From Sphingomonas pokkalii (lineage in GTDB: Bacteria > Pseudomonadota > Alphaproteobacteria > Sphingomonadales > Sphingomonadaceae), in the NCBI RefSeq assembly GCF_003096275.1, contig NZ_QENQ01000001.1, positions 1,149,923 to 1,213,922 of the forward strand: DNA of 64,000 bases, written 5' to 3'. The position numbers were made by a program, and so were the translations under genes. Below are positions 26,973-50,813 of the stretch, piece after piece; the stretch's first letter is position 1, and each line of letters opens with the position of its first letter. The notes beneath the pieces were generated by a model. The model was not told where the DNA came from, ran no database searches, and was given only the letters and a program-made list of their open reading frames with translations.

Positions 26973-29915
26973 TCAGAAGGTGAGCGTCGCGCCGAAGAAG
27001 ACGGTGCGGCCGAGCGGATCATACACGCCCGGATAGGTGTTGCCGTTGCCGAAGCTGGCGAGGACGCCGGAGGCAATCGCCGGCGGCGACTTGTCGGTCA
27101 GGTTGTTGATGCCGGCGCGGAACTGCAGCTGCTTCGCGGCCGAAATGGTGGTGGCGAGATCGAAATAGTTATAGCTGGGGATTCTGGCGTTGATGATGCT
27201 GGGCGTACCCGTCAGGAACGGATTGGAGGACAGGCTGGACAGCTGTGTGCCGGCAAAATGCCGCCAGGCGAGCGATAGCGTCGCCTTCTCCCCCGGCGCG
27301 ATCCAGGTCAGCCGGCCGACATGGCGCCAGGCCGGATTGGGCTGGCCGCAGCTATAACCGTAATAACCCTTGCAGTCATAGGTGCCGAGGTTGGGCAGCG
27401 TTTCCACCGTTTGTTGTTCCTGCCACGTGCCCACGATGCTGGCGTCGAGCTTGCCGAGGCTGCCGATACGGGTGAGATAGCTTGCGCCGACATCGATGCC
27501 GGAGGTGCGCAGATAGCCGGTGTTTAGCGTGCTGCCGACCACATAGCCGTTCGACCCGAACAATGCGCCGGTTCGCGGATCGCGCCGGAACAGCCCGCAA
27601 TAGAAGGGATCGCTGGTCGCTGTGCATTGGCTGACCACCAGCGATGGCCCGATCCCGCCGATATAGCCCTTCACCTTGATGTGGTAATAGTCCACCGAAA
27701 GCGAGAAGCCGGGCACCTGCTTCGGCGTCAGCACCACGCCGAAGGTGTAGGTGTCTCCCACTTCCGGTTTCAACGCCGGATTGCCGCCATAGGATTGCGA
27801 GCAGGTGTCGGCCGGGCACTGGATAATATGGCCATATTGCGCATCGGTTACGCCGGTAAGTTTGCAGGTGGTCAGCGAAGCTTCGGGCGTGGCACCGGCG
27901 CACGGATCGTTCAGGGACACGTTGCCGATGCCGCGCGCGCCGAACAGTTCGCTGATATTGGGCGCGCGGATCGCTCGATTGTAGCTGGCGCGGAAGCGCG
28001 CGCCGTCCACCGGCGACCAGGCGAGTTCGGCCTTGTAGGTCCACACCTTGTACGACGACTTGGTCGAGGTCGACCGCTGTTCGTTGGTGTAGGAGGAGTA
28101 GCGCACGCCGCCGTTGACGGTGAGTTCGTGAAGGAACGGAACGTCGGCGACGAGCGGCAGCTCGAGTTCGCCATAGGCTTCGTTCACGCTGATCACCCCG
28201 TCTGCATTGGCCGCGCCGCCCTGGGCTGCAACTTCATCGACGGTGTAGCGCAGCGTTTCTCGGCGATGTTCCACGCCCAGCGCGATGCCCGCGCCCCGGC
28301 GCGCCCAGGGGCTCTGGAGGCCGAAGGTGCCGAGGTCGCCACTGACGGTGCCCGACATGACTTCGAGCGTGTTGCGCGAGGCGGTATTCGATGGGCTGAA
28401 CAGATATTGCGCCTGGGATGCGCTGATGCCGTTGGCGCGGAAGATGTCGATCGGCACGCAGGCCGGATCGCTGCCGTCGATCTTGGATTGGCAGGTAGGC
28501 GTACTGCCGACCAGCACGGCGTTCAGGGCGCGTTGCGCCTTCACATTGTCGACGTTGTTGAGATAGGTCTCGTCGAACCGTGACAGCGCGTAGAGATAGC
28601 TCACGTCATAGCGGAAGCCCTGGCCGATATCGCCCTTCACGCCGGCATTGTAGCGATAGTCCTGGTGGCGCAGATCGTCGCGGCGCGAATAGGTGCTGTC
28701 GAGGCGATAGCCGATCAGCGTATCGGTGGTGGCGCTGGTGCCGGCGGCGGTGCCGCACAGCGCGCTGGCCTGCGCGCTACTCATCAGTGGGTTGTTGCAG
28801 GGAATGGTGAAGGTGGTGCCGAGGAACAGGGCGGACGGCGCGACCTGCGAGAAGGTGTGATCCTTCATCCACATGAAGCTGCCATAGACCTTGGCGACCG
28901 GCGCGATCTCGAACGATGCGAAGCCGCCGCCGGTATAGCGCTCGTCGGAGCGCTGGATGTAGTTGGTCGGCGAGTAGTTATACGCGTAGCTGGCGTCGTA
29001 CGGTACCCAGTTCTTCGAACCGTCGCGCGCATTGGTGAGATAGCCCAGGCCGGCACTAGGGCCTGCGAGCGGCGCGAAGGTGCCGAAGGTAGTGTTGCTC
29101 GACCCGCCGCAAACCAGATTGGTCTGGCTGGCGGCGTTGAGCGCGCAGGAGGAATAATCGCGGGTTGATTGCTGCACCGGCTCGGTGTGGCGATAGCCGC
29201 CATAGAGCATGATCTTGGCGCGGCCATCGGCGAAGGTCTTGCCGAACGCGCCGTTGATGTCCTGCTTCCCGCCGTCGATCACGCTGCGCGGCGCCAACTG
29301 ATAGCCCTTTGCCGACACCAGGCCGCGGACATAGGCATTGTCGTTGGTGTGCTGGGCGAAGCTGGTCTGCGCGTCGAGCCGGAAGCCGTCGAGATGATCG
29401 CGCAGCACGAAATTGACGACGCCGGACATCGCATCCGAGCCATAGACCGCGGAGGCGCCGCCGGTCACGACGTCGACACGCTCGATCAGCGCGGTGGGGA
29501 TGAAGTTGATGTCGGTCGCCTGCGAAGAAAGGATGCGCTGGCCATTGATCAGCGTGAGCACCCGGTTCGAGCCGAGATTGCGCAGGTTGATCTGTGCCGA
29601 CCCGTCTGCACCGTTTGAGACATTGTCGTTCGCGTCCGGGGTGAACTGCGGCATCCGGGCGAGGAGCGTCTCCGCATTCACAACGCCCTGATAGCGGATT
29701 TCCTTGTCGCTGATGGTGGTCAGGGGACTATTGCTCGCCAGATCGGGGCGGGCAATGCGCGTGCCCGTGACCAGGATTTCGCTGGGGCCGTCACTGGCTT
29801 CGGTCGATGGGCTTGCCGGCTCTGCAACCTGCTGCGCCTGCGCACTGCTCGCCAACATCGCGACCGCAAGCGCGCCCGCCGCTACCGATGCCCGAATTGT
29901 ATTATTATTACACAC
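26973..29915 (-). CDS. TonB-dependent receptor of the Hyp locus
   Basis: The protein has 980 residues. The GTG start (MCNNNTIRASVAAGALAVAML) is preceded by AGGGGG; a signal peptide ends near AQA (26-28). The TonB box-like SEILVTGTRIARP (45-57) is followed by plug-domain motifs VVTGGASAVYGSDAMSGVVN and a barrel ending FFGATLTF. The layout matches the large CarO/SusC-like receptors of sphingomonads that import oligomers. It is divergent from the hydroxyproline catabolic genes, and an operator-like TATACGATAT lies about 68 nt upstream. The import of Hyp-peptides or arabinosylated peptides is inferred. Confidence 0.9.
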   Translation of the reverse strand: MCNNNTIRASVAAGALAVAMLASSAQAQQVAEPASPSTEASDGPSEILVTGTRIARPDLASNSPLTTISDKEIRYQGVVNAETLLARMPQFTPDANDNVSNGADGSAQINLRNLGSNRVLTLINGQRILSSQATDINFIPTALIERVDVVTGGASAVYGSDAMSGVVNFVLRDHLDGFRLDAQTSFAQHTNDNAYVRGLVSAKGYQLAPRSVIDGGKQDINGAFGKTFADGRAKIMLYGGYRHTEPVQQSTRDYSSCALNAASQTNLVCGGSSNTTFGTFAPLAGPSAGLGYLTNARDGSKNWVPYDASYAYNYSPTNYIQRSDERYTGGGFASFEIAPVAKVYGSFMWMKDHTFSQVAPSALFLGTTFTIPCNNPLMSSAQASALCGTAAGTSATTDTLIGYRLDSTYSRRDDLRHQDYRYNAGVKGDIGQGFRYDVSYLYALSRFDETYLNNVDNVKAQRALNAVLVGSTPTCQSKIDGSDPACVPIDIFRANGISASQAQYLFSPSNTASRNTLEVMSGTVSGDLGTFGLQSPWARRGAGIALGVEHRRETLRYTVDEVAAQGGAANADGVISVNEAYGELELPLVADVPFLHELTVNGGVRYSSYTNEQRSTSTKSSYKVWTYKAELAWSPVDGARFRASYNRAIRAPNISELFGARGIGNVSLNDPCAGATPEASLTTCKLTGVTDAQYGHIIQCPADTCSQSYGGNPALKPEVGDTYTFGVVLTPKQVPGFSLSVDYYHIKVKGYIGGIGPSLVVSQCTATSDPFYCGLFRRDPRTGALFGSNGYVVGSTLNTGYLRTSGIDVGASYLTRIGSLGKLDASIVGTWQEQQTVETLPNLGTYDCKGYYGYSCGQPNPAWRHVGRLTWIAPGEKATLSLAWRHFAGTQLSSLSSNPFLTGTPSIINARIPSYNYFDLATTISAAKQLQFRAGINNLTDKSPPAIASGVLASFGNGNTYPGVYDPLGRTVFFGATLTF

Positions 29916-29982
29916 GGCCCGTAACCCCCTTTTTATGAGTCGCGCAATTGCAGCATTTTTTGCACCAATCCGTCAAATATTT

Positions 29983-29992
29983 TATACGATAT
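29983..29992 (+). promoter_or_regulatory. Putative GntR operator, site a
   Basis: TATACGATAT lies about 68 nt upstream of the GTG of the divergent TonB receptor. It is one of five related near-palindromes (TATACGRTAT) at promoters of this locus. Confidence 0.5.
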
Positions 29993-30097: not shown

Positions 30098-30107
30098 ATA
30101 CCGTATA
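30098..30107 (-). promoter_or_regulatory. Putative GntR operator, site b
   Basis: ATACCGTATA on the plus strand, that is TATACGGTAT on the minus strand, lies 34 nt upstream of the deaminase ATG. With site a it frames the divergent promoter region. Confidence 0.55.
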
Positions 30108-30140
30108 CGAAAACGTGATGCTTTGGAGGATGATGTTTCG

Positions 30141-31064
30141 ATGAATGCACGCAAGCCGCTATGGGCCGGTGTTTACCCTGCAGCGACGACGCAGTTCGCC
30201 GAGGACCTTTCCGTCGATCTCGCTGCCACCCAGAAGACGCAGACGGCGCTGGTCGACGACGGTGTCGATGGCCTGATTTTGCTCGGTACCTGCGGCGAGA
30301 ACAACTCGCTGGAAGCCGAGGAGAAGCGGCAGGTGCTGCGCGCCGGTGTCGAGGCGGTCGGCGGACGCGTGCCGCTGGTGGCGGGCGTTTCGGAATTCAC
30401 CACCGCGCGCGCGATCGAATATGTCCGCGATGCCGAGAAGATCGGCATCGATGCGCTGATGCTGCTTCCTGCCATGGTCTATGTGCCGACCGCCGAAGAG
30501 CTGGAGGCGCATTTTCGCGCGGTGGCCGCGGCGACGTCGCTGCCGATCATGCTGTACAACAACCCCCCGGCCTATCGCGTCTCGATCGACACCGACACGC
30601 TGGACCGGCTGGTGGACGTGCCGAACATCGTTGCGGTGAAGGAAAGCGCGCCCGATCCGCGCCGCTTCACCGATCTCTTCAACCGCTACGGGGATCGCTA
30701 CACGCTGATGGCGGGCTTGGACGATGTAGCGCTCGAAGGGCTGTTCCTGGGCGCATCGGGCTGGGTTTCGGGTCTAACCAGCGCCTTCCCGGAAGAATCG
30801 GTGCGGCTGGTCGCGGCGTTCAACGAGGGGCGGTTCGACGAGGCGCGGGCTATCTATCGCTGGTTCATGCCGCTGCTCCACCTGGACGCCGAACATGACC
30901 TCGTCCAATCAATCAAGCTCGCCGAGCAGATCATGGGCCGGGGCAGTGAACGCGTGCGGATGCCGCGCCTGCCGCTGTCGGGGGAACGCCGTGCGCAGGT
31001 GATCCGCTTCGTTGAGGAAGCCGCGGCGACGCGGCCGAGCCGGCGCGAGGCCAAGGCAGCGTAA
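30141..31064 (+). CDS. DHDPS/NAL-family lyase, probable pyrroline-4-hydroxy-2-carboxylate deaminase
   Basis: The 307-residue protein has the Schiff-base fold signature: GTCGENNSL (49-57), the catalytic tyrosine in LYNNPPAY (Y139) and the Schiff-base lysine in AVKES (K167). The family includes dihydrodipicolinate synthase, N-acetylneuraminate lyase and the deaminase of hydroxyproline degradation. The neighbouring epimerase and amino-acid oxidase genes favour the deaminase, which turns pyrroline-4-hydroxy-2-carboxylate into 2-oxoglutarate semialdehyde. The start at 30141 (MNARKP) follows GGAGG. Specificity is from context. Confidence 0.82.
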   Translation: MNARKPLWAGVYPAATTQFAEDLSVDLAATQKTQTALVDDGVDGLILLGTCGENNSLEAEEKRQVLRAGVEAVGGRVPLVAGVSEFTTARAIEYVRDAEKIGIDALMLLPAMVYVPTAEELEAHFRAVAAATSLPIMLYNNPPAYRVSIDTDTLDRLVDVPNIVAVKESAPDPRRFTDLFNRYGDRYTLMAGLDDVALEGLFLGASGWVSGLTSAFPEESVRLVAAFNEGRFDEARAIYRWFMPLLHLDAEHDLVQSIKLAEQIMGRGSERVRMPRLPLSGERRAQVIRFVEEAAATRPSRREAKAA

Positions 31065-31073
31065 ATCCCGAAC

Positions 31074-32072
31074 ATGCGCCACACCTTCTTCTGCATCGAC
31101 GGCCACACCGCGGGAAACCCGGTGCGGCTGGTGGCGGGCGGTGCGCCGCTGCTACGCGGTGGCGACATGCTGGCGCGGCGCACGGACTTTCTGGAGCGCT
31201 TCGACTGGATCCGCACCGGACTGTGCTTCGAGCCGCGCGGGCACGACATGATGTCGGGCGGGTTCCTCTACCCGCCCACCCGCGACGATACCGATTGCGG
31301 GATCCTGTTCATCGAGACCTCGGGCTGCCTGCCAATGTGCGGCCACGGCACGATCGGCATGGTGACCTTCGGGCTCGAGCACGGCCTGATCACCCCGCGC
31401 ACGCCAGGCCAGCTGCGGATCGAAGTACCGGCGGGGGTGATCGACATCGCATATGGCATGGAGGGCGACCGGGTGCGCTGGGTGCGCATCCGCAACGTGC
31501 CCGCCTATGTTGCCGCCACCGGAATCCAGATCGAGGTGCCTGGCTTCGGCCCGCTGACCGTAGATGTTTCCTATGGCGGCAATTATTACGCGATCATCGA
31601 GCCGCAGGGGCCTTATACCGGGCTCGACGATCTCGGCGCCTCGCGCATCGTCGAGCTCAGCCGCACGATCCGCACGCTGATGCGCGCCGCGATCGAGCCG
31701 GTGCATCCGCTCGACGACCGCATCCGCGGGGTCAGCCATGTCCTGTGGGCCGACAAGCCGAAGGGCGAGGGCGCCGATGGCCGCAACGCCGTCTTCTATG
31801 GCGAGCGCGCGATCGATCGCAGCCCGTGCGGTACCGGCACCTCGGCGCGGCTTGCCCATCTGGCCCATCAGGGCCGGCTGAAGGTGGGTGATCGATTTGT
31901 CCATGAAAGCTATATCGGCAGCCGGTTCATCGGCCGGGTGGAGGATAGCGTGATGGTGGGCGACCGGCCCGGCATCATTCCTTCAATCGAAGGATCGGCG
32001 ATCGCGACCGGTTTCAACACCATCTGGATCGATCGCGAAGACCCGTTCTGGGCTGGTTTCTCGGTCGTCTGA
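31074..32072 (+). CDS. 4-hydroxyproline 2-epimerase
   Basis: This proline-racemase-family protein of 332 residues has both catalytic cysteines: C89 in PMCGHGTIG and C252 in DRSPCGTGTSA. Retention of the second cysteine separates epimerases from trans-3-hydroxyproline dehydratases, in which it is threonine. It interconverts trans-4-hydroxy-L-proline and cis-4-hydroxy-D-proline, the first step of bacterial hydroxyproline catabolism. It lies 10 nt after the deaminase gene, in one operon with it and the permease. Confidence 0.9.
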   Translation: MRHTFFCIDGHTAGNPVRLVAGGAPLLRGGDMLARRTDFLERFDWIRTGLCFEPRGHDMMSGGFLYPPTRDDTDCGILFIETSGCLPMCGHGTIGMVTFGLEHGLITPRTPGQLRIEVPAGVIDIAYGMEGDRVRWVRIRNVPAYVAATGIQIEVPGFGPLTVDVSYGGNYYAIIEPQGPYTGLDDLGASRIVELSRTIRTLMRAAIEPVHPLDDRIRGVSHVLWADKPKGEGADGRNAVFYGERAIDRSPCGTGTSARLAHLAHQGRLKVGDRFVHESYIGSRFIGRVEDSVMVGDRPGIIPSIEGSAIATGFNTIWIDREDPFWAGFSVV

Positions 32073-32097: not shown

Positions 32098-33504
32098 ATG
32101 GGATTTTGGGGACCGATCAAACCGATCGAACGCAGCACGGGCCATAGCGCGCATCGGCTGCGCCCCACGCTTTCCTGGCCGCACCTGATCGCGCTCGGCG
32201 TCGGCGCCATTGTCGGCACCGGCATCTACACGCTGACCGGCGTAGGAGCGGAGCGGGCAGGGCCGGCGGTGATCCTGGCCTTCGTCATCGCTGGTCTGGT
32301 CTGCGCCTGCGCCGCGCTTGCCTATGCCGAGCTGGCGACGATGATTCCCACTGCCGGCAGCGCCTATACCTATAGCTATTCGGTGCTGGGGGAGACGATC
32401 GCCTGGGTGGTCGGTTGGAGCCTGATCCTCGAATATTCGCTGGCTTGTTCGGCGGTGGCGGTGGGCTGGTCCGGTTATCTGGTCGGCTGGCTGCAATCGG
32501 CGGGCGTCCATCTGCCGGCGATGCTGTTGCAGGGGCCGCATGCCGGCGGCATCGTCAACCTGCCTGCGGTGCTCGTTTCCTTCGCCATCGCCGGCATGTT
32601 GATGGCCGGGACGCGGGAGAGCGCCACGCTGAACATCGTGTTGGTGGTGATCAAGCTGGTCGCGCTCGCCGTGTTCGTGCTGCTGGCGCTGCCCGGCTTC
32701 GACACCGCCCATTTTCACCCCTTCATGCCGTACGGTTTCGCATCCCATGCCGATGGCAGCAGCACGCGCGGCGTGATGGCGGCTGCGGCGATCGTGTTCT
32801 TCGCCTTTTACGGCTTCGACGCCGTCGCCACCTCGGCCGAGGAAGCCAAGCGGCCGGGGCGCGACCTGACGATCGGCATCGTCGGATCGATGGCGCTGTG
32901 CACCACCATCTATATCCTGGTCGCGGTCGCGGCGGTGGGGGCGATGCCCTATACCGTGCTCGGCAACTCGCCGGAGCCGCTGGCGCTGGTGCTGCGCACG
33001 CTGGGCCATCCGCTCGCCGCCTGGGCGATCGCTGCCGCGGCGCTGGTCGCGCTGCCCTCGGTGATCCTCGTCATGATGTACGGGCAGAGCCGCATCTTCT
33101 TCGTGATGGCACGGGACGGGCTGTTGCCGCGAAGCCTCGCCAAGGTATCCCCGCGCACCGGCGCACCGGTGCTGGTGACTGGCATCACCGGACTGTTCGT
33201 GGCAGCTGTCGCTGGGTTCCTCCGGCTCGACGAGATCGCGGAACTCGCAAATGCCGGCACGCTGATCGCGTTCATCGCCGTGGGCATCTGTATGATGCTG
33301 CTGCGCCGCCGCGCGCCCGAGGCGCCCCGTATCTTCCGCTGCCCGCAGCCCTATGTCGTCGGTACGCTGGCGGTGCTAGGCTGCCTCTATCTGCTCTTCT
33401 CGCTGCCCGAGAAGACGTTGCTCCGCTTCCTGCTCTGGAACGTTGCGGGGCTTGCCGTCTATTTCCTCTATGGTCGCGCGCGCAGCGTGCTGGCGCGGGG
33501 CTGA
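32098..33504 (+). CDS. APC-superfamily amino acid permease
   Basis: The protein has 468 residues and about twelve membrane segments. The N-terminal GVGAIVGTGIYTLTGV matches the APC/CAT family substrate-binding helix 1, and AFYGFDAVATSAEEAKRP the conserved helix 6 region. It is the third gene of the operon after deaminase and epimerase. It probably carries hydroxyproline or another amino acid across the inner membrane. Its stop is 3 nt from the convergent regulator stop. Confidence 0.9.
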   Translation: MGFWGPIKPIERSTGHSAHRLRPTLSWPHLIALGVGAIVGTGIYTLTGVGAERAGPAVILAFVIAGLVCACAALAYAELATMIPTAGSAYTYSYSVLGETIAWVVGWSLILEYSLACSAVAVGWSGYLVGWLQSAGVHLPAMLLQGPHAGGIVNLPAVLVSFAIAGMLMAGTRESATLNIVLVVIKLVALAVFVLLALPGFDTAHFHPFMPYGFASHADGSSTRGVMAAAAIVFFAFYGFDAVATSAEEAKRPGRDLTIGIVGSMALCTTIYILVAVAAVGAMPYTVLGNSPEPLALVLRTLGHPLAAWAIAAAALVALPSVILVMMYGQSRIFFVMARDGLLPRSLAKVSPRTGAPVLVTGITGLFVAAVAGFLRLDEIAELANAGTLIAFIAVGICMMLLRRRAPEAPRIFRCPQPYVVGTLAVLGCLYLLFSLPEKTLLRFLLWNVAGLAVYFLYGRARSVLARG

Positions 33505-33507: not shown

Positions 33508-34152
33508 TCAGCCGTTCAACTGGCGGCGGAGATCGGTGAGGGTGCCTTCGATATGCGCGCGGGCCAGCACGCGGGCGCGATCGACGTCACCCGTTTCCCA
33601 TGCGTCGATCAGATCGGCATGTTCGAGATGGGCGCGATCTTCCCGGCCGGCCGGTTCGAGGTGCTTGTGGACATAGCGCTCGGACAGGATCTGAAGCCGT
33701 TCGACGAGCTGGGTGGTGAGCAGTCGACCGCCGGGGCGTACCAGCGCCATGTGGAATTCACGATTCCGCGCGGCGACTTCATCGAGATGTTCGGCGGCGG
33801 CGAGATCGAGCGCGGCCAGTGCCTCGCGCGCGGCCGCGCGATCCGCATCCGTGGCAGACAACGCACCCGCCACGACGGCATCGGGTTCGATGGCGAGCCG
33901 GAGAGCATAGATCTCCTCGGCTTCGCCGGACGACATGGCGCGGACGAAATAGCCGCGGTTCGCCTGACCGACAAGCAGCCCTTCCTGCTCCAGCCGCGCC
34001 AGCGCCTCGCGCAGCGGGATCTTGCTGACCCCCAGCGAGTTGGCCAGGGCATCCTGCCGGATCGCCTGATCCACCGGCAATTTGCCCGAAACGATCTGCT
34101 CGCGCACGATCGCGAAAATCTGCTCCGACAAGGTGCGGACTACGATACTCAT
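33508..34152 (-). CDS. GntR-family regulator with FCD domain
   Basis: The 214-residue protein begins MSIVVRTLSEQIFAIVREQI. It has a winged helix (DALANSLGVSKIPLREALARLEQEG is the recognition region) and an FCD ligand-binding domain with histidines in AARNREFHMAL and EHADLIDAW. The start at 34152 has GGAGGA upstream. FCD regulators usually bind small acids or amino-acid breakdown products. Five near-palindromic sites at surrounding promoters are its likely operators; one (34252-34261) lies in its own divergent promoter region. Confidence 0.9.
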   Translation of the reverse strand: MSIVVRTLSEQIFAIVREQIVSGKLPVDQAIRQDALANSLGVSKIPLREALARLEQEGLLVGQANRGYFVRAMSSGEAEEIYALRLAIEPDAVVAGALSATDADRAAAREALAALDLAAAEHLDEVAARNREFHMALVRPGGRLLTTQLVERLQILSERYVHKHLEPAGREDRAHLEHADLIDAWETGDVDRARVLARAHIEGTLTDLRRQLNG

Positions 34153-34251: not shown

Positions 34252-34261
34252 ATACGGTATA
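34252..34261. promoter_or_regulatory. Putative GntR operator, site c
   Basis: ATACGGTATA reads TATACCGTAT on the other strand and lies between the gntR start (100 nt away) and the D-amino-acid dehydrogenase start (23 nt away). It could control both the regulator and the oxidase. Confidence 0.55.
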
Positions 34262-41390: not shown

Positions 41391-43766
41391 ATGAACAGAA
41401 CGCGCAGGGAAGTGCTGGCGGGTACGAGCGGTGTCTTTCTCGCCGCCGGCGGCGGCATCGGGCTTGCCCGGGCGGCTGGGGTCGCAGCGCTGCCTGCAAA
41501 GCTAACGCCGCTGCCGCTTACCGCGCTGCGGCTGCGCCCGTCCGACTTCGCCAATGCAGTCGCGCTGAACCATCGCTACCTGCTGGCGCTCAGCCCCGAC
41601 AGGCTGCTGCACAACTTCCGCAAATATGCGGGAATGGAGCCGAAGGCGCCGATTTATGGCGGCTGGGAAAGCGATACGATCGCGGGCCATACGCTTGGTC
41701 ACTACCTCACGGCGCTGGTGCTCACCTGGCAGCAGACCGACGATGCCGAGATGCGTCGTCGCGCGGACTATATCGTCGCCGAACTGGCGGCGGCGCAGGC
41801 GAAGCGCGGCACCGGCTATGTCGGTGCACTGGGACGCAAGCAGCCAGACGGCACGATCGTCGATGGCGAGGCGATCTTCGGCGAGATCATGCGCGGGGAG
41901 ATCAAGTCCGGCGGGTTCGATCTCAACGGGTCCTGGTCGCCGCTCTATACGGTGCACAAGCTGTTCGCCGGGCTGCTCGACGTCCATGTCGGCTGGGGCA
42001 ACCCCCAGGCGCTGCAGGTGACGCTGGGCCTGGCCAGCTATTTCGAACGGGTGTTCGCTGCGCTCGACGACGATCGGATGCAGCAGGTGCTGGGCTGCGA
42101 ATATGGCGGGCTGAACGAAAGCTTCGCCGAGCTTTATGCCCGCACCCGCGATCCGCGCTGGATGGTGGTGGCGAAGCGGCTGTACGACAACCGGGTGCTC
42201 GATCCGCTGAAGGCGGGGGAGGACAAGCTCGCCAATTTCCACGCCAATACCCAGGTGCCCAAGCTGATCGGGCTGGCGCGCATCCACGAACTGACCGGCG
42301 ATGGCGGCGACGCCGCGGCAGCGCGGTTCTTCTGGGAGCGGGTGACGCAGCACCACAGCTATGTGATCGGCGGCAATGCCGACCGCGAATATTTCGCCGC
42401 GCCGGACAGCATTGCGCTGCACATCACCGATCAGACGTGCGAGCATTGCAACACCTACAACATGCTCAAGTTGACGCGACATCTGTTCGCCTGGAAGCCC
42501 GATGCGTCGCTGTTCGACTTTTACGAGCGGGCACATCTGAACCATGTGATGGCGGCGCAGGATCCGAAGACCGGCGGCTTCACCTATATGACGCCGCTGA
42601 TGAGCGGGGCAGTGCGCCAGTTCGCGCAGCCCGATCGGGAGGAATTCTGGTGCTGCGTCGGCTCCGGCATGGAAAGCCATGCCAAGCATGGCGAAGCGGC
42701 GTTCTGGGAAGGCGAAGGGACGTTCCTCGTCAACCTGTACGTGCCGGCGGAGGTGACGTGGAAGGCGCAAGGGGCGCGGCTGGTGCTCGATGGCAGCTAT
42801 CCGATCGGCGGCACGGCGACATTGACGGTGGCGGCGCTGGCCAAGCCGGGCCGCTTCGCCATCGCGTTGCGCGTGCCGGGATGGGCGAAGGGCCGGGCGG
42901 TAGTGACGGTCAACGGCAAGCCGGCCGGCGCCATGTTCGACAAGGGCTATGCGATCGTCGCACGGGCATGGAAGCCGGGCGACGCGCTGGCGATCACCTT
43001 GCCGATGGAGCCCCGGCTGGAAGCGACGCCGGGCGATGATTCGGTCGTGGCAGTGCTGCACGGGCCGCTGGTGCTGGCGGGCGATCTGGGCGCGGCATCC
43101 GATCCGTGGGACGGGGCGGACCCGGCGATGGTGGGGCAGGATCTGCTCGCCGGATTCCGTGCCGAGGCCGAGCCTGCCGTCTATGCCACCCAAGGGGTGG
43201 TGCGCCCCGGCGATCTGCGTTTCGTCCCCTTCTATCGCCAGGCGGATCGGCGCAGTGCCGTCTATTTCAAGCGCTTCGGCGAAAACGCATGGAAGGCCGA
43301 GCAGGCTACCTATTTCGCCGAGCAGGCACGGCTGAAGGACGTGCAGGCGCGCGCGGTGGACGTGATGCATCTGGGCGAGATGCAGCCGGAACGCGATCAT
43401 GATCTGCGCACGGGCGGTGCGTCCTACCCCGTCGCCTATCGCGGGCGACAGGGGCGGGATGCGCGCTCGGGCGGCTGGTTCGACTTCCGGTTGAAGACGC
43501 GCGAAGGCCCGCTGGTGCTCCAGGCGACCTATTGGGGCGGCGAGCGCAGCCGCGCTTTCGACATTCTGGTCGACGATGTGAAGATCGCGACCCAGCATCT
43601 GGAGGAGAGCGATCGGCCGGGGAAGTTCTTCGATGTCGAATATCCGCTGCCGGAAGCGCTGACCAAGGGCAAGCAATCGATCCGCGTGCGGTTCGTGCCG
43701 AAGGATCGCGATACCGCCGGTCCGGTGTTCGGCGTGGTGCTGTTCACCGCACGCACGTCCGGATAG
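41391..43766 (+). CDS. GH127-type beta-L-arabinofuranosidase (DUF1680)
   Basis: The protein has 791 residues. It has a twin-arginine-type signal (NRTRREVLAGTSGVFLAAGG), an (alpha/alpha)6-like barrel and C-terminal beta domains. The GH127 zinc-thiolate site is present: TCEHCNTYN (E351, C353) and FWCCVGSGMESH (C421, C422, one being the nucleophile). In characterised enzymes such as Bifidobacterium HypBA1 this fold removes beta-L-arabinose from hydroxyproline-linked arabinooligosaccharides of extensin. The neighbouring hydroxyproline genes make that substrate attractive. Other GH127/146 enzymes act on different arabinans, so specificity is not proven. Confidence 0.85.
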   Translation: MNRTRREVLAGTSGVFLAAGGGIGLARAAGVAALPAKLTPLPLTALRLRPSDFANAVALNHRYLLALSPDRLLHNFRKYAGMEPKAPIYGGWESDTIAGHTLGHYLTALVLTWQQTDDAEMRRRADYIVAELAAAQAKRGTGYVGALGRKQPDGTIVDGEAIFGEIMRGEIKSGGFDLNGSWSPLYTVHKLFAGLLDVHVGWGNPQALQVTLGLASYFERVFAALDDDRMQQVLGCEYGGLNESFAELYARTRDPRWMVVAKRLYDNRVLDPLKAGEDKLANFHANTQVPKLIGLARIHELTGDGGDAAAARFFWERVTQHHSYVIGGNADREYFAAPDSIALHITDQTCEHCNTYNMLKLTRHLFAWKPDASLFDFYERAHLNHVMAAQDPKTGGFTYMTPLMSGAVRQFAQPDREEFWCCVGSGMESHAKHGEAAFWEGEGTFLVNLYVPAEVTWKAQGARLVLDGSYPIGGTATLTVAALAKPGRFAIALRVPGWAKGRAVVTVNGKPAGAMFDKGYAIVARAWKPGDALAITLPMEPRLEATPGDDSVVAVLHGPLVLAGDLGAASDPWDGADPAMVGQDLLAGFRAEAEPAVYATQGVVRPGDLRFVPFYRQADRRSAVYFKRFGENAWKAEQATYFAEQARLKDVQARAVDVMHLGEMQPERDHDLRTGGASYPVAYRGRQGRDARSGGWFDFRLKTREGPLVLQATYWGGERSRAFDILVDDVKIATQHLEESDRPGKFFDVEYPLPEALTKGKQSIRVRFVPKDRDTAGPVFGVVLFTARTSG

Positions 43767-43813: not shown

Positions 43814-45577
43814 ATGAACGCCAAGCCCCTGCTGCCCCTGATCCTGTTCGCGCTCGCCGCGCCTGCCGCTGCAGGCACGCCGCCCGCGCGGACGCCGATG
43901 TCCGCCGACGCACGGTTGAAGGCCCTCTACACAGCGGAATATGCCTGGCGCCGCCAGCAGCAGGGGCCGGGGGAGGATACGCCCAACGGCCCCGCCGGCG
44001 GCCTGCCCGATGCCGGCCCTGCCGCCCAGGCCGCGCGCCTTGCCCGCTGGACCGAGACGGCACGGCAACTGGCGGCGATCGATCCCGCCAAGCTTTCGGC
44101 CAAGGGGCGGATCGATTACCTCGTCTATAAGGGGCAGATCGATGCACTGCTCGCCGAACAACGGTTCCGCGATTATGAAAAGCCGCTCACCTCGGACACC
44201 AGCTTCTGGAGCGACGTGGCGGAAGCGGCGCGCGGGCGGTTCGTGCGCGAGGCCGATTACCGCGCCTATCTGAAGACGCTGCGCGACGTGCCGCGCTACT
44301 TCGATCAGAACATCGCCAATATGCGTGCCGGGTTGCAGCGCGGCTTCACGCCGCCGCAAATCACCCTGGCCGGGCGCGACATCGGCGTGGCGCAGGTGGT
44401 GGAGGCGCCGGGCGACGACAATCTGTTCTATGCGCCGTTCCGGCAGTTTCCGGCCGCGATCCCTGCCGCCGTGCAGGAATCGCTGCGGCGCGAAGGGATG
44501 GCGGCGATACGCGAGGCGGTGATCCCGGCGCACGCCAAGCTGCTGCAATTCCTCCGCACGGAATATATGCCCGGTGCGCGCAAGGCGCTGGCTGCCACCG
44601 ATCTGCCCGATGGCCAGGCCTATTACCGTTCCAAGATCCGCGAATATGTGACGCGCGACATGACCGCCGAGCAGGTCCATGCGATCGGCGTGCGGGAAGT
44701 GGCGAAGATCCGCGCCGAGATGCTGGCGGTGATGCGCGAGGTGAAGTTCGATGGCGATCTGACCGCCTTCCTCACCTTTCTGCGCACCGATCCGCGCTTC
44801 TACCCGAAGACGCCGCAGGAATTGCTGGAGCACGCCGCCTGGATCGCCAAGACCTTCGATGGCAAGGCCAGCCAGTATTTCGGCCGGCTGCCGCGCAGCC
44901 GGTTCGCGATCAAGCCGGTGCCGGCCGATCTCGCGCCCTTCTACACCAGCGGCCGGGGCGGGCCGGGCATCTATCTGCTCAACACCTATGACCTGAAATC
45001 GCGGGCCAATTATCAGCTCACCGCGCTGACCCTGCACGAAAGCGCGCCGGGCCATGCGTTCCAGATGCCGCTCGCCAATGAGAACAAGGAGCTGCCGGCG
45101 TTCCGGCGCGAAACCTATCTTTCCGCTTATGGCGAGGGCTGGGCGCTCTATTCGGAGAAGCTGGGCGTCGAGATGGGCATGTACGAAACGCCCTATGACC
45201 GGTTCGGGATGCTCAGCTACCAGATGTGGCGCGCGTCGCGACTGGTGGTCGACACCGGCATCCACGCGCTCGGCTGGAGTCGCGAGAAGGCGCAGCAGTT
45301 CCTGCGCGACAATACGGCGCTGAGCAATCACGAGATCGAGACCGAAGTCGATCGCTACATCGCGTGGCCGGGGCAGGCGCTGAGCTATTATATGGGCGAA
45401 CTGGCGCTGCTCGACGCGCGGGCGCGGGCGGAAAAGGCACTGGGCGGGCGCTTCAACATCCGTGCCTGGCACGATGCGATGCTGCAGCTGGGATCCGTGC
45501 CGCTGACGGTGATCGACCTGCGCACCGACCAGTTCATCCGGGACGGCGGCAAGGGGCCCTATCCCGACGAGGAATAG
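43814..45577 (+). CDS. DUF885-family putative metallopeptidase
   Basis: This 587-residue protein has a signal peptide (MNAKPLLPLILFALAAPAAA) and the zinc-peptidase-like motif LTLHESAPGHAFQM (H408, E409), followed by SAYGEGWALYSEKLG, which carries the third ligand. DUF885 proteins are thought to be carboxypeptidase-like. The signal peptide places it in the periplasm. It lies 47 nt after GH127 and probably continues that transcript. A role in breaking down Hyp-rich peptides is inferred. Confidence 0.83.
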   Translation: MNAKPLLPLILFALAAPAAAGTPPARTPMSADARLKALYTAEYAWRRQQQGPGEDTPNGPAGGLPDAGPAAQAARLARWTETARQLAAIDPAKLSAKGRIDYLVYKGQIDALLAEQRFRDYEKPLTSDTSFWSDVAEAARGRFVREADYRAYLKTLRDVPRYFDQNIANMRAGLQRGFTPPQITLAGRDIGVAQVVEAPGDDNLFYAPFRQFPAAIPAAVQESLRREGMAAIREAVIPAHAKLLQFLRTEYMPGARKALAATDLPDGQAYYRSKIREYVTRDMTAEQVHAIGVREVAKIRAEMLAVMREVKFDGDLTAFLTFLRTDPRFYPKTPQELLEHAAWIAKTFDGKASQYFGRLPRSRFAIKPVPADLAPFYTSGRGGPGIYLLNTYDLKSRANYQLTALTLHESAPGHAFQMPLANENKELPAFRRETYLSAYGEGWALYSEKLGVEMGMYETPYDRFGMLSYQMWRASRLVVDTGIHALGWSREKAQQFLRDNTALSNHEIETEVDRYIAWPGQALSYYMGELALLDARARAEKALGGRFNIRAWHDAMLQLGSVPLTVIDLRTDQFIRDGGKGPYPDEE

Positions 45578-45682
45578 GCCGGAGTCCGTACTAGCCCCAA
45601 TTCAGCCGCGGTCTCGCGCGGCGCATGACATGCCGGAAACCCGCATCCGCCGCCCCCGCGCGGCACGAGCATGGAGCCCGGC

Positions 45683-47074
45683 ATGTCCTTCGCGACCACC
45701 AATCCCTATACCGGCGAAACGCTGAAGACCTTTCCGACGGCGACCGACGACGAGGTTCGCACCGCGATCGATCGCGCGCATCGGGCCTTTCTCGGCTGGC
45801 GCGATGCCAGTTTTGCCGAACGTGCGGCGGTGATGCGGGCGGCGGCGGCGATCCTGCGCCGCGACGTGGAGAAATATGCCCCGCTGCTCACGCTGGAAAT
45901 GGGCAAGCTGATCGGCGAGGCGAAGGCGGAAGTGGAACTGTCCGCCGCGATCTTCGACTATTATGCGGAAAATGCCGAGCGGCTGCTCGCCCCGGAACCG
46001 CTGCCGGTGGCCGATCCGGCCGAGGGGCAGGCGGTGCTGGTGTGCGATCCGCTGGGCGTGCTGCTCGCGATCGAGCCGTGGAATTTCCCCTATTACCAGA
46101 TCGCCCGGATCATCGCGCCGCAGCTTTCGGCCGGCAACACGATCCTGTTGAAGCACGCCTCGAACGTGCCGCAATGCGCAGCGGCGTTCGAGGCGCTGAT
46201 GCGCGAGGCGGGACTGCCGGAAGGAGGGTTCCTGAACCTCTATGCCGCGCATGATCAGGTCGAACTGATCCTCGCCGATCCGCGCGTGCACGGGGTGGCG
46301 CTTACCGGGTCGGAAGCGGCCGGCGCGCAGGTGGCCGCGATCGCGGGCAAGGCGCTGAAGAAATCGACGATGGAACTGGGCGGTGCCGATGCGTTCGTCG
46401 TGCTGAAGGACGCGGACCTCGAAAAGACCGTGCGATGGGCGGTGTTCGGCCGCCACTGGAATGGCGGGCAGGTGTGCGTCTCCTCGAAGCGGATGATCAT
46501 CGCCGACGAACTCTATGACAGCTTCCTGGCGCGGTACCGGGAGGGCGTGGCGGCGCTGCGCATGGGCGATCCGTTCGATGCCGAGACGACGCTGGCGCCG
46601 CTCTCCTCGCAAAAGGCGGCGGACGATGTGCGGGCGATGGTTGCCCAGGCCGTCGCCCATGGCGCGACCGCCACGCCCGTGGGCCCGGACGTGCCGAACC
46701 AGGGCGCGTTCGTGCAGCCCGTGATCCTGACGGACGTGGGGGACAGCAATCCTGCCCGGCACTGGGAGTTTTTCGGCCCGGTTTCGATGCTGTTCCGTGC
46801 CCGCGACGAGGAGGATGCGATCCGCATCGCCAATGATTCGCCCTTCGGTCTCGGCGGTTCGGTGTTCACCTGCGATCCCGAACGCGGCGCGGCGGTGGCT
46901 CGGCGGATCGAGACCGGGATGGTGTTCGTCAATCACCCGACGATGGTGAAGGCCGATCTGCCGTTCGGCGGAATCCGCCGTTCCGGCTATGGCCGGGAAC
47001 TGCTCGGTCTGGGGATCCGCGAGTTTGTGAACCACAAGCTGATCGACATCGTCGATATCGACGCGCCGTTCTGA
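45683..47074 (+). CDS. NAD(P)-dependent aldehyde dehydrogenase, probable 2-oxoglutarate semialdehyde dehydrogenase
   Basis: The 463-residue ALDH has the catalytic residues N134 (IEPWNFPYY), E231 (STMELGGAD) and C265 (GGQVCVSSKR). It most resembles succinate-semialdehyde dehydrogenases. In hydroxyproline catabolism the last step, 2-oxoglutarate semialdehyde to 2-oxoglutarate, uses this family. The start at 45683 is favoured, with GGAG 7 nt upstream; 45671 is an alternative. It is at the end of the GH127/DUF885 run, 105 nt away. Confidence 0.85.
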   Translation: MSFATTNPYTGETLKTFPTATDDEVRTAIDRAHRAFLGWRDASFAERAAVMRAAAAILRRDVEKYAPLLTLEMGKLIGEAKAEVELSAAIFDYYAENAERLLAPEPLPVADPAEGQAVLVCDPLGVLLAIEPWNFPYYQIARIIAPQLSAGNTILLKHASNVPQCAAAFEALMREAGLPEGGFLNLYAAHDQVELILADPRVHGVALTGSEAAGAQVAAIAGKALKKSTMELGGADAFVVLKDADLEKTVRWAVFGRHWNGGQVCVSSKRMIIADELYDSFLARYREGVAALRMGDPFDAETTLAPLSSQKAADDVRAMVAQAVAHGATATPVGPDVPNQGAFVQPVILTDVGDSNPARHWEFFGPVSMLFRARDEEDAIRIANDSPFGLGGSVFTCDPERGAAVARRIETGMVFVNHPTMVKADLPFGGIRRSGYGRELLGLGIREFVNHKLIDIVDIDAPF

Positions 47075-47732
47075 ACGCGAAGGACGCGGGGCGCCGCCGT
47101 TCAGATCGCGGAAAGCCCCGCTCGAAACCGGACCGTTTCGTCTCCGCGCAATGGCGGTGCCTCGCTTATTGCTGCAAATGCGAAATGGATGCCATCTGCA
47201 ATGCAAAATACTGTGACATTGTAGAATGCAAATATGTCATAATTTCTGTCAAATCGTTCGCGATTGCGATCGGTAATCTTGCGTAAATATTGTATACTAT
47301 CGTTATAAGGTAGAATAAATTCAACATTGTTGAAGTTTATATATTATATATTTCTTTTCATTTTATTCTGAATGTCCAGAATAGTTGTAATATTTTTGAA
47401 GATGATGGGTATTATTTTATCATTTTACGATATGTTTATGATACATATTTTTTAATGGCATTGAACTTATAATGTTATCAATGATAAACTTTGTAAAAAG
47501 TTGCGATACTATATCTGAAACATAGAAGTATTGCTTAGTTTTATTGAAGATCGGTCTGCTTAGTGAGAAATTTCTGGATGATGTTGCGGAAGTATCCATT
47601 GAGCTTCCGGGTCCTTTTAAAGGATCATTAACGTCGCCGATGATAGCGCGCGCCCATCGCAGCACCCGGGCATGGGGTGTGCAAGCGACGAAAAGTCGCT
47701 GCTGCGTTAAAGGGAAGGGCTTGGTGACTTTA
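47075..47732. other. AT-rich promoter region of the TonB receptor
   Basis: No gene seen. The stretch from about 47200 to 47540 is strongly AT-rich with several TATA-like runs. TGTATACTATCG (47291-47302) is a weak relative of the operator motif at the locus. A reading frame opens at 47544 (TTG) in the receptor frame but has no signal peptide or ribosome site, so the receptor start is set at 47733. Confidence 0.5.
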
Positions 47733-50700
47733 ATGAATTCCGCGTTTTTAACTCTGCGATACGGGATCTCGACGGCGGCGTTGCTTACCGCGATTGTGGC
47801 CCCAGCGCACGCGCAGGACGCTGTGCCGTCGACGATGACGGGAGCCGTTGCCGCCGATGCTGATGTTGCGTCGCAGCAGACCGATGCGACCACAGGCCAG
47901 GATCGGCAGGCTGATGCCGCACCCGCAGCGCAACCCGACGCTGGCCAGGGCACCGCGATCGTCGTCACCGGAACGCTGTTCCGCGATTCCAACGCCTCCT
48001 CGATCTCGCCCGTGACCGTGCTCAGCGCTGCGACGCTGCAGCGGGCCAACATCACCACCGCGCAGGACGCGATCCGCTCGGTTTCGGCCGACAGCGCCGG
48101 CTCGATTTCGACCGGCTTCCGCAACGGCTTCTCGGCCGGCGGTGCCGCCGTATCGCTTCGCGGCCTGGGCGTTTCGTCCACCGTCGTGCTTATCGATGGC
48201 CTGCGCTCGGCGAACTTTCCGCTCAACGACGACGGCCACAACGCCTATGTCGACCTGAACTCGATTCCGTTCAGCACCATCGATCGCATCGAAGTGCTGA
48301 AGGACGGCGCCTCCTCCACCTATGGGGCGGATGCGATTGGTGGTGTGGTCAACCTCATCAGCAAGAAGAACGTCCAGGGCGTTTCGGGCTCGGTGCAGGG
48401 TGGCACCACGGGCCATGGCGACGGTTCGCACTACCGGGCGACGCTGACCGCCGGCGTGGGCGACTATCGCGAGAAGGGCTGGAACTTCTATGTCAACGGT
48501 GAATACACCTATGACGGGTTCATCACCAACCATTCGCGCGGTTATCCGTTCAACACGCTGGACCTGCGTCCGAGCGGCCTGAAGGACCAGAACCTCAACG
48601 ACGAATCGCTGGTGACCCCCAACCCGCAGGCGGTCGTCACCCGCGTGCGGCAGACCGACCTCAACAATCCCCTGGCCGGTCAGGTCGGTGCGCCGCTCAG
48701 CAACCAGTATCAGCTGCTCAACCCGAACGGCTGCCCCTTCGGCACCTTCACCGTGACTTCGGGTGCAGCACAGGGCACCGGCTGCGCCCATAACCTTCCG
48801 GATGAATATTCGATCATCCAGCCGAAGCAGCAGCGCTATTCGACGACCGCTCGCCTAACCGTGCGCCTGGCCGACAATTGGGAGGCCTTTGCCTCGGGCA
48901 GCTATTCGCGTTCCGAAGTCACGATCACGGGCACGCCTGCAGGCATCCGCCAGACCCAGCCGTTCGGCGGCTCCGCGGCGATTGCGTCCAACAATCCCGG
49001 CATCGTGCTGCCGGTCTATGTCTGCGCCGCCGGCGTGAACTGCGCCACCGCGGCGGACCGGCGGGTGAACCCCAATAACCCCTACGCTGCTGCTGCCGAC
49101 GCCGCAGGCACACCTGCCGAAGGCGCCGCGCGCATCTATTATCTGTTCGGCGACATCCCGGCCGGCAGCTTCCGCGCTGTCGACGTGTACCGCGCGACCG
49201 CGGGTATTTCGGGCGATCTCGGCAACGGTTTCCGCTTCCGCCTGAACGGCGTCTATGCCCGTGACAATCTCAGCGTCACGCAACGCGGCTTCATCAACAT
49301 CCAGGGCCTGATCAACGCGATCAACACCGGCGCCTACAATTTCGTCAATCCGGAACAGAACAGCGCGGCGGTGCGCAATCAGGTATCGCCGGATCGCACC
49401 ACCCCGTCCTATTCGACGGTGGCGACGATCGGTGGCTCGCTCATCAAGTCGATGATGGAACTGCCGGGTGGGGACCTCAACGTGGGCGCCGGCTTCCAGA
49501 TCCGTCGCGAAACGCTGATGAACCGCAACGCGAATTTCGATCTGGCCTATTACGGCATGAACACCTCGTCGGCCCAGGGCCGCCAGACCGTTACCGCCGG
49601 CTTCTTCGAAATCGACGCGCCGTTCACGCGCGCGATCGACCTCAATGTGTCGGGCCGCTACGACCATTACTCGCAGGGCTACAGCCACTTCTCGCCCAAG
49701 GTGGGCGTGAAATACACGCCGATCGAGCAGGTCTCGTTCCGCGCTACCTACTCGCAGGGTTTCCGCGCACCGACCTTCGCGGAAAACAATCCGGCCAGCA
49801 GCTATGCCGGCTTCTCGTCCCTTACGCTGGATCCGAAATCGGCGTTCGTCCTCGCCCATCCGGGCAATCCTGCCTACACCACCACGTACAATATCGGCAG
49901 CGGCTCCCAGGGTAACCCGAACATCCTGCCGGAAGTGTCGCGCAGCATCACGGTCGGCACGATGTTGAAGCCGACGCGCTGGCTGAACCTGACCGTCGAC
50001 TATTACAATATCAAGAAATCGCATCTGATTGTCAGCGGCCCGCTGGGTCCCAAGGCCGTCGACGCCTATTACAGCAAGACCAACGCGGTCGATGGCTGCG
50101 CCGCGCTCGCCGCAGTGGGGCCGGGCTATGCCTGCCGCGTCATCGATGCGCCGGATCCGGTCAACCCAAACGCGCTGCCGCGCCTGCTGGTGTATGATGT
50201 CCCCTACGTCAACGCCAACTATCAGGTAAGTTCGGGCATCGACATGCAGGCAAGCGCCAACCTGCGCCTGTCCGACAATGTGCGCCTGATCAGCCGCCTC
50301 GACGTCACGCGCGTGCTTCGCCTCGATCTGGTGACCCCGGAGGGCGTGGTGCAGAAATATGCAGGTACGCTTGGGCCGTACCGGCTGTCTTCGGGTGGCG
50401 GCACGCCGCGCATCCGTGGCAACTGGCAGAACAGCCTCGAAATGGGCAAGCTCTCGCTCACGGCGACGACCTATTATGTCGGTCGGATCAAGCAGGTCGC
50501 AGCCGATCGCATCGCGGCCGACAAAACAACCGGCGTAATCGACCTGTCGTGCAAGAACAACCTGGCTCCCGTGCCGGACGGCGTCGACAAGACCCGCCAG
50601 TGCTTCATCCGCCCGTTCATCTATGTCGACCTGAACGCCGCGGTGAAGGTGAACGAGCAGTTCCGGTTCTTCGTCAACGTCCAGAACCTGACCGATGCCC

Positions 50701-50813
50701 GCGCGCCGCTGGCAGCGGGTGCCTATACCAGCAACCCCAACTATCTGAGCAGCTGGCACTATGCCGGTCTCGTCGGCCGCAACTTCAGCGCAGGCGTGAA
50801 CGTCAACTTCTGA
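47733..50813 (+). CDS. TonB-dependent receptor (large, with plug domain)
   Basis: The protein has 1026 residues from ATG 47733, with GGGAAGG upstream. A signal peptide ends near APAHAQ; a TonB box-like GTAIVVTGTLF is followed by plug motifs (RIEVLKDGASSTYGADAIGG) and a barrel with IKKSHLIVSGPLG and a C-terminal RNFSAGVNVNF. It is of the same broad type as the 26973-29915 receptor. It follows the aldehyde dehydrogenase on the same strand and may import the oligomers processed by the locus. The substrate is not known. Confidence 0.9.
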   Translation: MNSAFLTLRYGISTAALLTAIVAPAHAQDAVPSTMTGAVAADADVASQQTDATTGQDRQADAAPAAQPDAGQGTAIVVTGTLFRDSNASSISPVTVLSAATLQRANITTAQDAIRSVSADSAGSISTGFRNGFSAGGAAVSLRGLGVSSTVVLIDGLRSANFPLNDDGHNAYVDLNSIPFSTIDRIEVLKDGASSTYGADAIGGVVNLISKKNVQGVSGSVQGGTTGHGDGSHYRATLTAGVGDYREKGWNFYVNGEYTYDGFITNHSRGYPFNTLDLRPSGLKDQNLNDESLVTPNPQAVVTRVRQTDLNNPLAGQVGAPLSNQYQLLNPNGCPFGTFTVTSGAAQGTGCAHNLPDEYSIIQPKQQRYSTTARLTVRLADNWEAFASGSYSRSEVTITGTPAGIRQTQPFGGSAAIASNNPGIVLPVYVCAAGVNCATAADRRVNPNNPYAAAADAAGTPAEGAARIYYLFGDIPAGSFRAVDVYRATAGISGDLGNGFRFRLNGVYARDNLSVTQRGFINIQGLINAINTGAYNFVNPEQNSAAVRNQVSPDRTTPSYSTVATIGGSLIKSMMELPGGDLNVGAGFQIRRETLMNRNANFDLAYYGMNTSSAQGRQTVTAGFFEIDAPFTRAIDLNVSGRYDHYSQGYSHFSPKVGVKYTPIEQVSFRATYSQGFRAPTFAENNPASSYAGFSSLTLDPKSAFVLAHPGNPAYTTTYNIGSGSQGNPNILPEVSRSITVGTMLKPTRWLNLTVDYYNIKKSHLIVSGPLGPKAVDAYYSKTNAVDGCAALAAVGPGYACRVIDAPDPVNPNALPRLLVYDVPYVNANYQVSSGIDMQASANLRLSDNVRLISRLDVTRVLRLDLVTPEGVVQKYAGTLGPYRLSSGGGTPRIRGNWQNSLEMGKLSLTATTYYVGRIKQVAADRIAADKTTGVIDLSCKNNLAPVPDGVDKTRQCFIRPFIYVDLNAAVKVNEQFRFFVNVQNLTDARAPLAAGAYTSNPNYLSSWHYAGLVGRNFSAGVNVNF

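Follow-up and report, generated by a model that had tools for sequence, protein, structure and literature searches.

Hydroxyproline (Hyp) regulons controlled by the GntR-family regulator HypR have been described together with collagenases in Alteromonadales, mostly Shewanella (PMC5343134), and a HypR-type Hyp regulon with a collagenase has been described in Streptomyces coelicolor (PMC6608401). In Latescibacteria, the use of hydroxyproline-rich glycoproteins (HRGPs) has been inferred from genomes, and the available part of that account does not mention the regulon considered here (PMC4454575). When competing in planta, a Sphingomonas isolate induced a DPP-4 along with enzymes of polysaccharide degradation, a xylosidase/arabinosidase among them; for the DPP-4 its authors mention proline-rich wall glycoproteins (PMC9123166). 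We analysed a 64-kb stretch of the Sphingomonas pokkalii genome (4.22 Mb, 18 contigs), referred to as the window (G000:C1:1149923-1213922). Its locus at 26973-50813 joins genes for Hyp catabolism to a predicted β-L-arabinofuranosidase of the GH146 type, a DUF5695 protein, peptidases and TonB-dependent receptors. Judged from its sequence, this locus is probably (at roughly 75%) an HRGP utilisation regulon under a HypR-like GntR repressor.

Pfam and NCBIfam scans found the named genes where the sequence-only reading of the window had placed them. Conservation was assessed in the best 80 of 276 relatives found in genome_contigs by a search with the GH146 protein, with flanks fetched up to 10 kb; these named loci come mainly from Sphingomonas, Novosphingobium and Caulobacter, and a small number come from elsewhere, among them Granulicella and further Acidobacteria. 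The features of the locus are as follows.

26973..29915, strand -, TonB-dependent receptor TBDR1 (Pfam PF00593/PF07715; 24/80 named loci carry a relative with 38% identity or more)
29984..29992, no strand, degenerate operator-like site in the gap between TBDR1 and the Hyp operon, ATACGATAT (weak, single site)
30098..30109, no strand, predicted operator 1, before the DHDPS-family gene, ATACCGTATACG
30141..31064, strand +, DHDPS-family enzyme, probable pyrroline-4-hydroxy-2-carboxylate (Pyr4H2C) deaminase, HypD-like (PF00701, E 3.8e-57, on the open reading frame (ORF) from 30123; function suggested by the neighbours)
31074..32072, strand +, 4-hydroxyproline 2-epimerase (NF010578, 533 bits against a cut-off of 376; C89, C252)
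32098..33504, strand +, APC-family amino-acid permease (PF13520)
33508..34152, strand -, GntR-FCD regulator, HypR-like (PF00392 and PF07729 in 33508-34167; start taken at the ATG of MSIVV)
34252..34263, no strand, predicted operator 2, in the divergent promoter of the GntR and dehydrogenase genes, ATACGGTATACA
34284..35534, strand +, FAD-dependent oxidoreductase (DAO), probable D-Hyp dehydrogenase (PF01266, E 5.4e-41; under the NCBIfam cut-offs for D-amino-acid dehydrogenase)
35531..36715, strand +, M24 Xaa-Pro dipeptidase, prolidase (PF00557; chain 5cik, named proline dipeptidase, E 7.4e-149)
36754..38253, strand -, porin O/P (PF07396)
38505..41264, strand -, DUF5695 protein with a signal-like N-terminus and three domains, putative distant PL27 relative (PF18951, 1220 bits)
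41307..41315, no strand, second site in the GH146/DUF5695 promoter, lacking GTATAC, ATACGGTAT
41362..41371, no strand, predicted operator 3, in the divergent DUF5695/GH146 promoter, TCGTATACGA
41391..43766, strand +, predicted GH146-type β-L-arabinofuranosidase (PF07944, PF20736, PF20620)
43814..45577, strand +, DUF885 putative metallopeptidase with a signal-like N-terminus and an HESAPGH motif (PF05960, E 9e-153; presumed role)
45671..47074, strand +, aldehyde dehydrogenase, candidate 2-oxoglutarate semialdehyde dehydrogenase (PF00171)
47287..47298, no strand, predicted operator 4, about 440 bp upstream of TBDR2, ATATTGTATACT
47733..50813, strand +, TonB-dependent receptor TBDR2 (Pfam on the ORF from 47544; ATG start set from the sequence)

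The stretch 47075-47732, about 650 bp before TBDR2, looks strikingly AT-rich to the eye beside the 63% GC of the window.

We then searched 249 genomes of the family with the GH146 protein and the epimerase of the window, both against the same genomes, and counted GH146 matches of at least 54% identity and epimerase matches of at least 70% identity. The results showed that 21 genomes carried both genes, 0 GH146 only, 12 the epimerase only and 216 neither (Fisher p 2e-22, uncorrected for phylogeny). The 21 genomes span 15 genera. Because the genomes are related, the count was also made by genus (n=96), which gave 15 with both, 0 with GH146 only, 2 with the epimerase only and 79 with neither (Fisher p 1e-15, likewise uncorrected). 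Any GH146-type match occurred in 33/249 genomes and any epimerase-type match in 42/249. The two genes lay 2.1-10.7 kb apart in 19 of the 21 genomes; in G182 the epimerase sits on a 3.4-kb contig. As a control, we took ten GH146 copies of 45-50% identity from the same sample, and none of them was near an epimerase; eight copies of this identity were fetched with their upstream DNA, and GTATAC, the palindrome described below, was found in none. The same two queries were run against a phylum sample of 349 genomes, where three more genomes passed the 54% threshold for GH146 and each of them showed linkage (G520, 2.8 kb; G581, 11.2 kb; G453, 12.8 kb). G453 belongs to another class and keeps GntR, DAO, DHDPS, epimerase, DUF5695, TBDR1, DUF885, GH146 and M24 together.

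The operator-like site that the sequence-only reading had reported as shared by these genes proved real. GTATAC occurs four times in the 64 kb (30103, 34257, 41364 and 47292), each time upstream of a gene of the locus. Under a Markov model of the intergenic pieces concerned, the mean was 0.3 occurrences, and none of 2000 runs reached four. In the named loci, we counted GTATAC up to 200 bp upstream of each gene. It preceded GH146 in 70/79, DHDPS in 47/47, DAO in 27/30 and DUF5695 in 27/61 cases. Before genes that are mostly internal to operons the counts were 2/38 for the epimerase, 0/29 for M24, 1/29 for the permease and 0/71 for DUF885, and before other ORFs 23/624, a background from which GntR (8/34) and TonB receptors (TBDR1, 5/15) were set apart. 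When all 64 six-base palindromes were ranked, GTATAC came first for GH146, DHDPS, DAO and DUF5695; for TBDR1 it ranked second and for GntR fourth. The letters flanking the palindrome were similar between GH146 and DHDPS sites. In the family loci, scored up to 350 bp upstream, 16/21 GH146 genes carried it. The exact core TCGTATACGA has a single copy in the 4.22-Mb genome, before GH146. Allowing one mismatch in a genome-wide search gave 39 matches, compared with 88 when the reversed core was used as a control, and this search was otherwise uninformative.

The regulator of the window combines GntR and FCD domains and adjoins the Hyp genes, and a common operator-like site stands before those genes; in these two respects the locus resembles a HypR-type regulon. 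A GntR of the same cluster was found in 18/22 GH146/Hyp stretches (G083 contributes two stretches). Among Hyp loci without GH146, 8/10 fetched carried GTATAC before DHDPS, which is consistent with GH146 having joined a pre-existing Hyp regulon.

The sequence-only reading had asked whether the same gene set occurs in other sphingomonads, and the combination does recur across related genera. Gene presence in the named loci was scored at identity thresholds of 45-60%, set gene by gene. ORFs in relatives were called with a home-made caller trained on the window, which returned zero ORFs for stretches L194 and L195; each companion cluster takes its Pfam name from one representative, to which the members were matched by blastp. 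DUF885 was present in 70/80 named loci, DUF5695 in 61/80 and at least one of epimerase, DHDPS and DAO in 51/80. Clustering of the unassigned ORFs added further companions: an Ldh_2-family dehydrogenase in 54 loci, a GH43 in 33, DPPIV-type S9 peptidases of two clusters in 24 and 12, and a GH27 in 10. The GH43 companion is about 520 amino acids long, with a representative nearest to arabinofuranosidase/xylosidase chains, and the GH27 representative is nearest to α-galactosidases; the GH43, DPPIV and GH27 companions fit a proline-rich glycoprotein. Among the matches listed, the closest named GH146 gene was that of Sphingomonas sp. ATCC 31555 (88% identity). Variation among neighbours, which would have counted against the proposed locus, was seen in gene order, in some companions, in the porin (1/80 named loci, L105) and in the aldehyde dehydrogenase (1/80), while the core set stayed mostly constant.

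A more distant occurrence was found in G336, of another class. Within 23 kb (stretches L207 and L208) it carries the epimerase (38%), DHDPS (42%), KGSADH (41%), M24 (64%), DPPIV (63%), DUF885 (47%), a TonB receptor (30%), an amidohydrolase (67%), GH146 (46%) and Ldh_2 (56%). Since its Hyp enzymes are not close orthologues, it seems from this single genome that the functional combination recurs rather than one inherited segment. Among phylum GH146 copies of 36-51% identity, G336 was the one of ten near an epimerase-family gene. In the acidobacterial loci L139, L145, L159 and L177 (Granulicella and others), GH146 is 65-69% identical to that of the window, with no Hyp set nearby, which suggests cross-phylum transfer.

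For the Hyp pathway, the epimerase passed the curated NCBIfam cut-off for 4-hydroxyproline epimerase. The two cysteines that had been pointed out earlier are C89 and C252, and both motifs were kept in 32/32 relatives longer than 320 amino acids. The aldehyde dehydrogenase gave 25 listed NCBIfam matches, every one under its cut-off. A 525-amino-acid aldehyde dehydrogenase, an expected companion, has a homologue elsewhere in the genome at C1:1458540 (62%), with no GTATAC in the 20 kb around it. The best solved match of DUF885 was 3o0y (E 5.9e-60), an entry that names no function.

The glycosidase had been labelled GH127 in the sequence-only reading, and it matches Pfam PF07944, a model named GH127. 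Against PDB chains, it matched 5opj with E 1.6e-134, 8k7x with E 1.2e-48 and 3wkw with E 3.7e-14. We take 5opj to be BT0349, the founder of GH146, 8k7x to be Bll3HypBA1, and 3wkw to be HypBA1 of GH127. Because 5opj is a far better match than 3wkw, the enzyme is called GH146 here; close membership of the HypBA1-like GH127 enzymes was rejected on the same values. The residues C350, E351, C353, C421 and C422 are near-invariant in 80 aligned GH146 sequences (CEHC at 350, WCC at 420), and this cysteine-rich site aligns to the same region of 5opj. It corresponds to the zinc-bound catalytic cysteine site of GH146, and the N-terminus carries a twin-arginine-like signal motif. The enzyme is predicted to be of the β-L-arabinofuranosidase type.

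A model of DUF5695 was built with AlphaFold2 from 38 sequences (pLDDT 85, pTM 0.85). It consists of a β-sandwich, an (α/α) barrel-like helical domain and a C-terminal β-domain, and the first two are the parts that make up the PL27 fold. The best structural match was the PL27 entry 5no8/5nok (Foldseek E 2.5e-27; Z 28.1 over 633 residues, with the next other entry at 15.9), and GH121 and GH127 were not named among the 50 matches listed for either structural comparison. When the sequence profile was compared with the PDB up to E 10, the sole match was the PL27 enzyme BACCELL_00875 (E 2e-5, with positions 511-725 of 915 as the best-matching stretch). PL27 takes rhamnose off glucuronate in gum arabic by β-elimination (PMC8377490). 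DUF5695 and the PL27 lyases share the N-terminal β-sandwich, the (α/α) barrel and detectable profile similarity; unlike them, DUF5695 has an extra C-terminal β-domain. Identity between the two is about 14%, and the likeness is one of fold and profile. DUF5695 models as a distant PL27 relative. It is present in 10/249 family genomes, all within the 21 that hold GH146 and the epimerase, and the one paper in the open-access literature found to contain the term is, judged by its title, unrelated.

The sequence-only reading had coupled glycan stripping to Hyp use in one regulon with extensin as the target. The conserved linkage, the co-occurrence and the palindrome bear out the first part and support joint regulation and joint function; extensin as the specific target is not established, because DUF5695 resembles PL27, an enzyme of arabinogalactan-protein (AGP) degradation. 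In the mechanism that we propose, TonB receptors would carry plant cell-wall HRGP glycopeptides into the periplasm, where the exported GH146 would take off β-L-arabinofuranose, probably the residue bound to Hyp itself, and the PL27-like DUF5695 protein would trim another part of the glycan. DUF885 would cleave the exposed peptide, the APC permease would import Hyp and Hyp-containing dipeptides, and the M24 prolidase would free Hyp from the latter. The epimerase, the D-Hyp dehydrogenase, the deaminase and an aldehyde dehydrogenase would then convert Hyp to 2-oxoglutarate. Free Hyp or a derivative may lift GntR repression at the GTATAC sites, which stand before the Hyp operon and the dehydrogenase as well as before GH146/DUF5695 and one receptor. 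The glycosidase would then be induced by an amino acid and not by a sugar.

Several observations weigh against an HRGP regulon of this kind. In 29/80 named loci, the flanks, fetched up to 10 kb, contained no epimerase, DHDPS or DAO. Elsewhere in these genomes, an epimerase of 73% identity or more is present in 20, a fragment in 1, only 36-37% matches in 3 (acidobacterial) and only a weak fragment in 1; the other 4, including a Granulicella metagenome-assembled genome, have none. G083 carries GH146 on one contig and the Hyp genes on another. G052 has its best GH146 copy (63%), with a GTATAC of its own, about 147 kb from the epimerase, and its linked copy is 56% identical. GTATAC was absent from the 350 bp before GH146 in G225, G123, G229, G083 and G182, and from 40 kb in G336. 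A second GntR-FCD gene occurs in 18 named loci (e.g. L156:9158-9910) and stands directly upstream of GH146 in about 12/80, among them L122, L132, L156 and L173, so that in those loci GH146 may be under a separate regulator whose palindrome is similar. No second GntR gene lies directly upstream of GH146 in the window. The window locus also lacks the GH43, GH27 and DPPIV of its relatives, as well as their Ldh_2-family dehydrogenase. The 20 kb of surrounding DNA fetched for a GH43 homologue at C1:1913862 (70%) contained no GTATAC, so this gene and the 525-amino-acid aldehyde dehydrogenase apparently lie outside the regulon. Finally, the GH146 enzyme BT0349 acts on an arabinan-derived tetraose and β1,2-arabinobiose, and Bll3HypBA1 acts on β1,3-arabinofuranose (Araf) of AGPs and arabinan (PMC10850190), indicating that the bond cut is not fixed by family membership.

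As to the substrate, we favour HRGPs in general, with extensin somewhat ahead of AGP; either one taken alone would be a narrower version of this reading. Extensin carries Ser-O-galactose as well as arabinose, and in an extensin-type arabinosylated HRGP a GH43 enzyme would cut the α1,3-arabinose, another enzyme would shorten the β1,2 chain and GH146 would take the last arabinose off Hyp, a target for which the evidence is about evenly balanced. The GH146 members XeHypBA1 and Bll4HypBA1 act on Araf-β1-Hyp (PMC10850190), and the Xanthomonas set uses GH43, GH121 and XeHypBA1 (PMC6085000). The arabinofuranosidase/xylosidase-like GH43 (33/80) and the α-galactosidase-like GH27 (10/80) of the named loci would suit this target, but both lie outside the locus of the window. 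GH121 did not turn up in Pfam scans of the window and the scanned neighbours, where a GH121 model may be lacking, and no ORF was recognisable as GH121 in the ORF lists of the GH146 neighbourhoods of G556, G576 and G372. The likeness of DUF5695 to an AGP lyase also tells against extensin.

AGP is a less probable target, which we consider possible at best. DUF5695 would then act like PL27 on rhamnose-glucuronate caps, GH146 would remove terminal β1,3-Araf, and Hyp would come from the AGP core. Profile and structure both single out PL27 (E 2e-5; Z 28.1 against 15.9), the release of rhamnose from gum arabic is known for PL27 (PMC8377490), and Bll3HypBA1 degrades AGP (PMC10850190). The 14% identity argues against this target, as do the 11/21 family genomes without DUF5695 and the scanned neighbours, among which no exo-β1,3-galactanase was recognised.

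A role of GH146 in the use of arabinan or other pectic arabinose, with a regulator shared with Hyp use through common metabolism, is quite unlikely. 2-Oxoglutarate semialdehyde can arise from arabinose as well as from Hyp, and DHDPS-family enzymes also serve arabinose pathways. A Gfo/Idh-type gene lies close to GH146 in a few loci, and BT0349 acts on arabinan oligosaccharides (PMC10850190). However, the prolidase, DUF885 and partly DPPIV that accompany GH146 are needless for arabinan, and GH146 copies below 54% identity were near an epimerase only in G336 (0/10 in the family at 45-50%; 1/10 in the phylum at 36-51%). A neighbourhood arisen by chance or by inheritance of a shared island, without joint function, is highly improbable: a relaxase, an integrase and a SIR2/HerA-type set in the window make mobility plausible, but order and orientation differ among genera while the core content stays, the same palindrome recurs, G336 joins non-orthologous Hyp enzymes to a similar set, and chance linkage was rejected by the co-occurrence and palindrome counts.

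Elsewhere in the window, a relaxase/DUF3363 protein at 7005-9074 suggests a conjugative or mobilisable element adjoining the locus. At 12902-21498, a HerA-like DUF87 protein, SIR2_2 and a 1080-amino-acid protein (weak nSTAND match, below the Pfam cut-off) adjoin a phage-type integrase, a set that resembles mobile SIR2/HerA-type defence sets. Beside the locus, at 50921-57090, a PF12831 FAD oxidoreductase, an STN-type TonB receptor, FecR and an ECF sigma factor form a separate signal-transducing receptor system. A C39-peptidase ABC transporter, a radical SAM protein, a sulfotransferase-like protein and one unassigned protein at 57972-63745 may be a cluster of the RiPP (ribosomally synthesised and post-translationally modified peptide) type.

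HRGPs are structural and defence-related proteins of the plant cell wall. If the HRGP regulon proposed here is real, their sugar and amino acid would be a little-known nutrient source for leaf and root bacteria such as Sphingomonas, Novosphingobium and Caulobacter, extensin or AGP degradation by commensals would become a testable trait, and two uncharacterised families, DUF5695 and DUF885, would have concrete function predictions. It is about as likely as not that the locus stands for a widespread class of glycoprotein-utilisation regulon of plant-associated bacteria in which Hyp from the protein, and not the sugar, induces glycosidases, that this class arose on two or more occasions from different Hyp enzymes, and that DUF5695 is a new lyase-like carbohydrate-active family dedicated to plant HRGPs.

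The sequence-only reading did not recognise the locus as a described system. No account of this coupling was found in the open-access literature, which leaves most subscription journals outside, but the HypR/collagenase regulons are a precedent (PMC5343134, PMC6608401). The HypBA/HypAA systems of Bifidobacterium longum and Xanthomonas euvesicatoria (PMC6085000, PMC10850190) are alike in their GH146 enzyme and, for some relatives of the window locus, in a nearby GH43 and prolyl peptidase. They differ in that the published account, as far as its available part covers, includes no Hyp catabolism, and in GH121, which was not recognised here in Pfam scans of the window and part of the neighbours (a model may be absent), DUF5695 being present instead. 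With TonB-dependent carbohydrate utilisation loci, the locus shares a receptor, exported enzymes, an inner-membrane transporter and a local regulator, but here an amino acid from the core of the protein is predicted to act as the inducer and to be the main source of carbon and nitrogen. The HypR regulons share the GntR-family regulator, the Hyp catabolic genes, an enzyme that acts earlier to release the Hyp-rich protein and, in Alteromonadales and Aeromonas, proline (di)peptidases. Their S. coelicolor consensus differs from the GTATAC-centred palindrome found here, and they employ collagenases, whereas the glycosidase, the PL27-like protein and the TonB receptors of this locus point to a plant glycoprotein. 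By analogy, the locus looks like a plant counterpart of the HypR/collagenase regulons.

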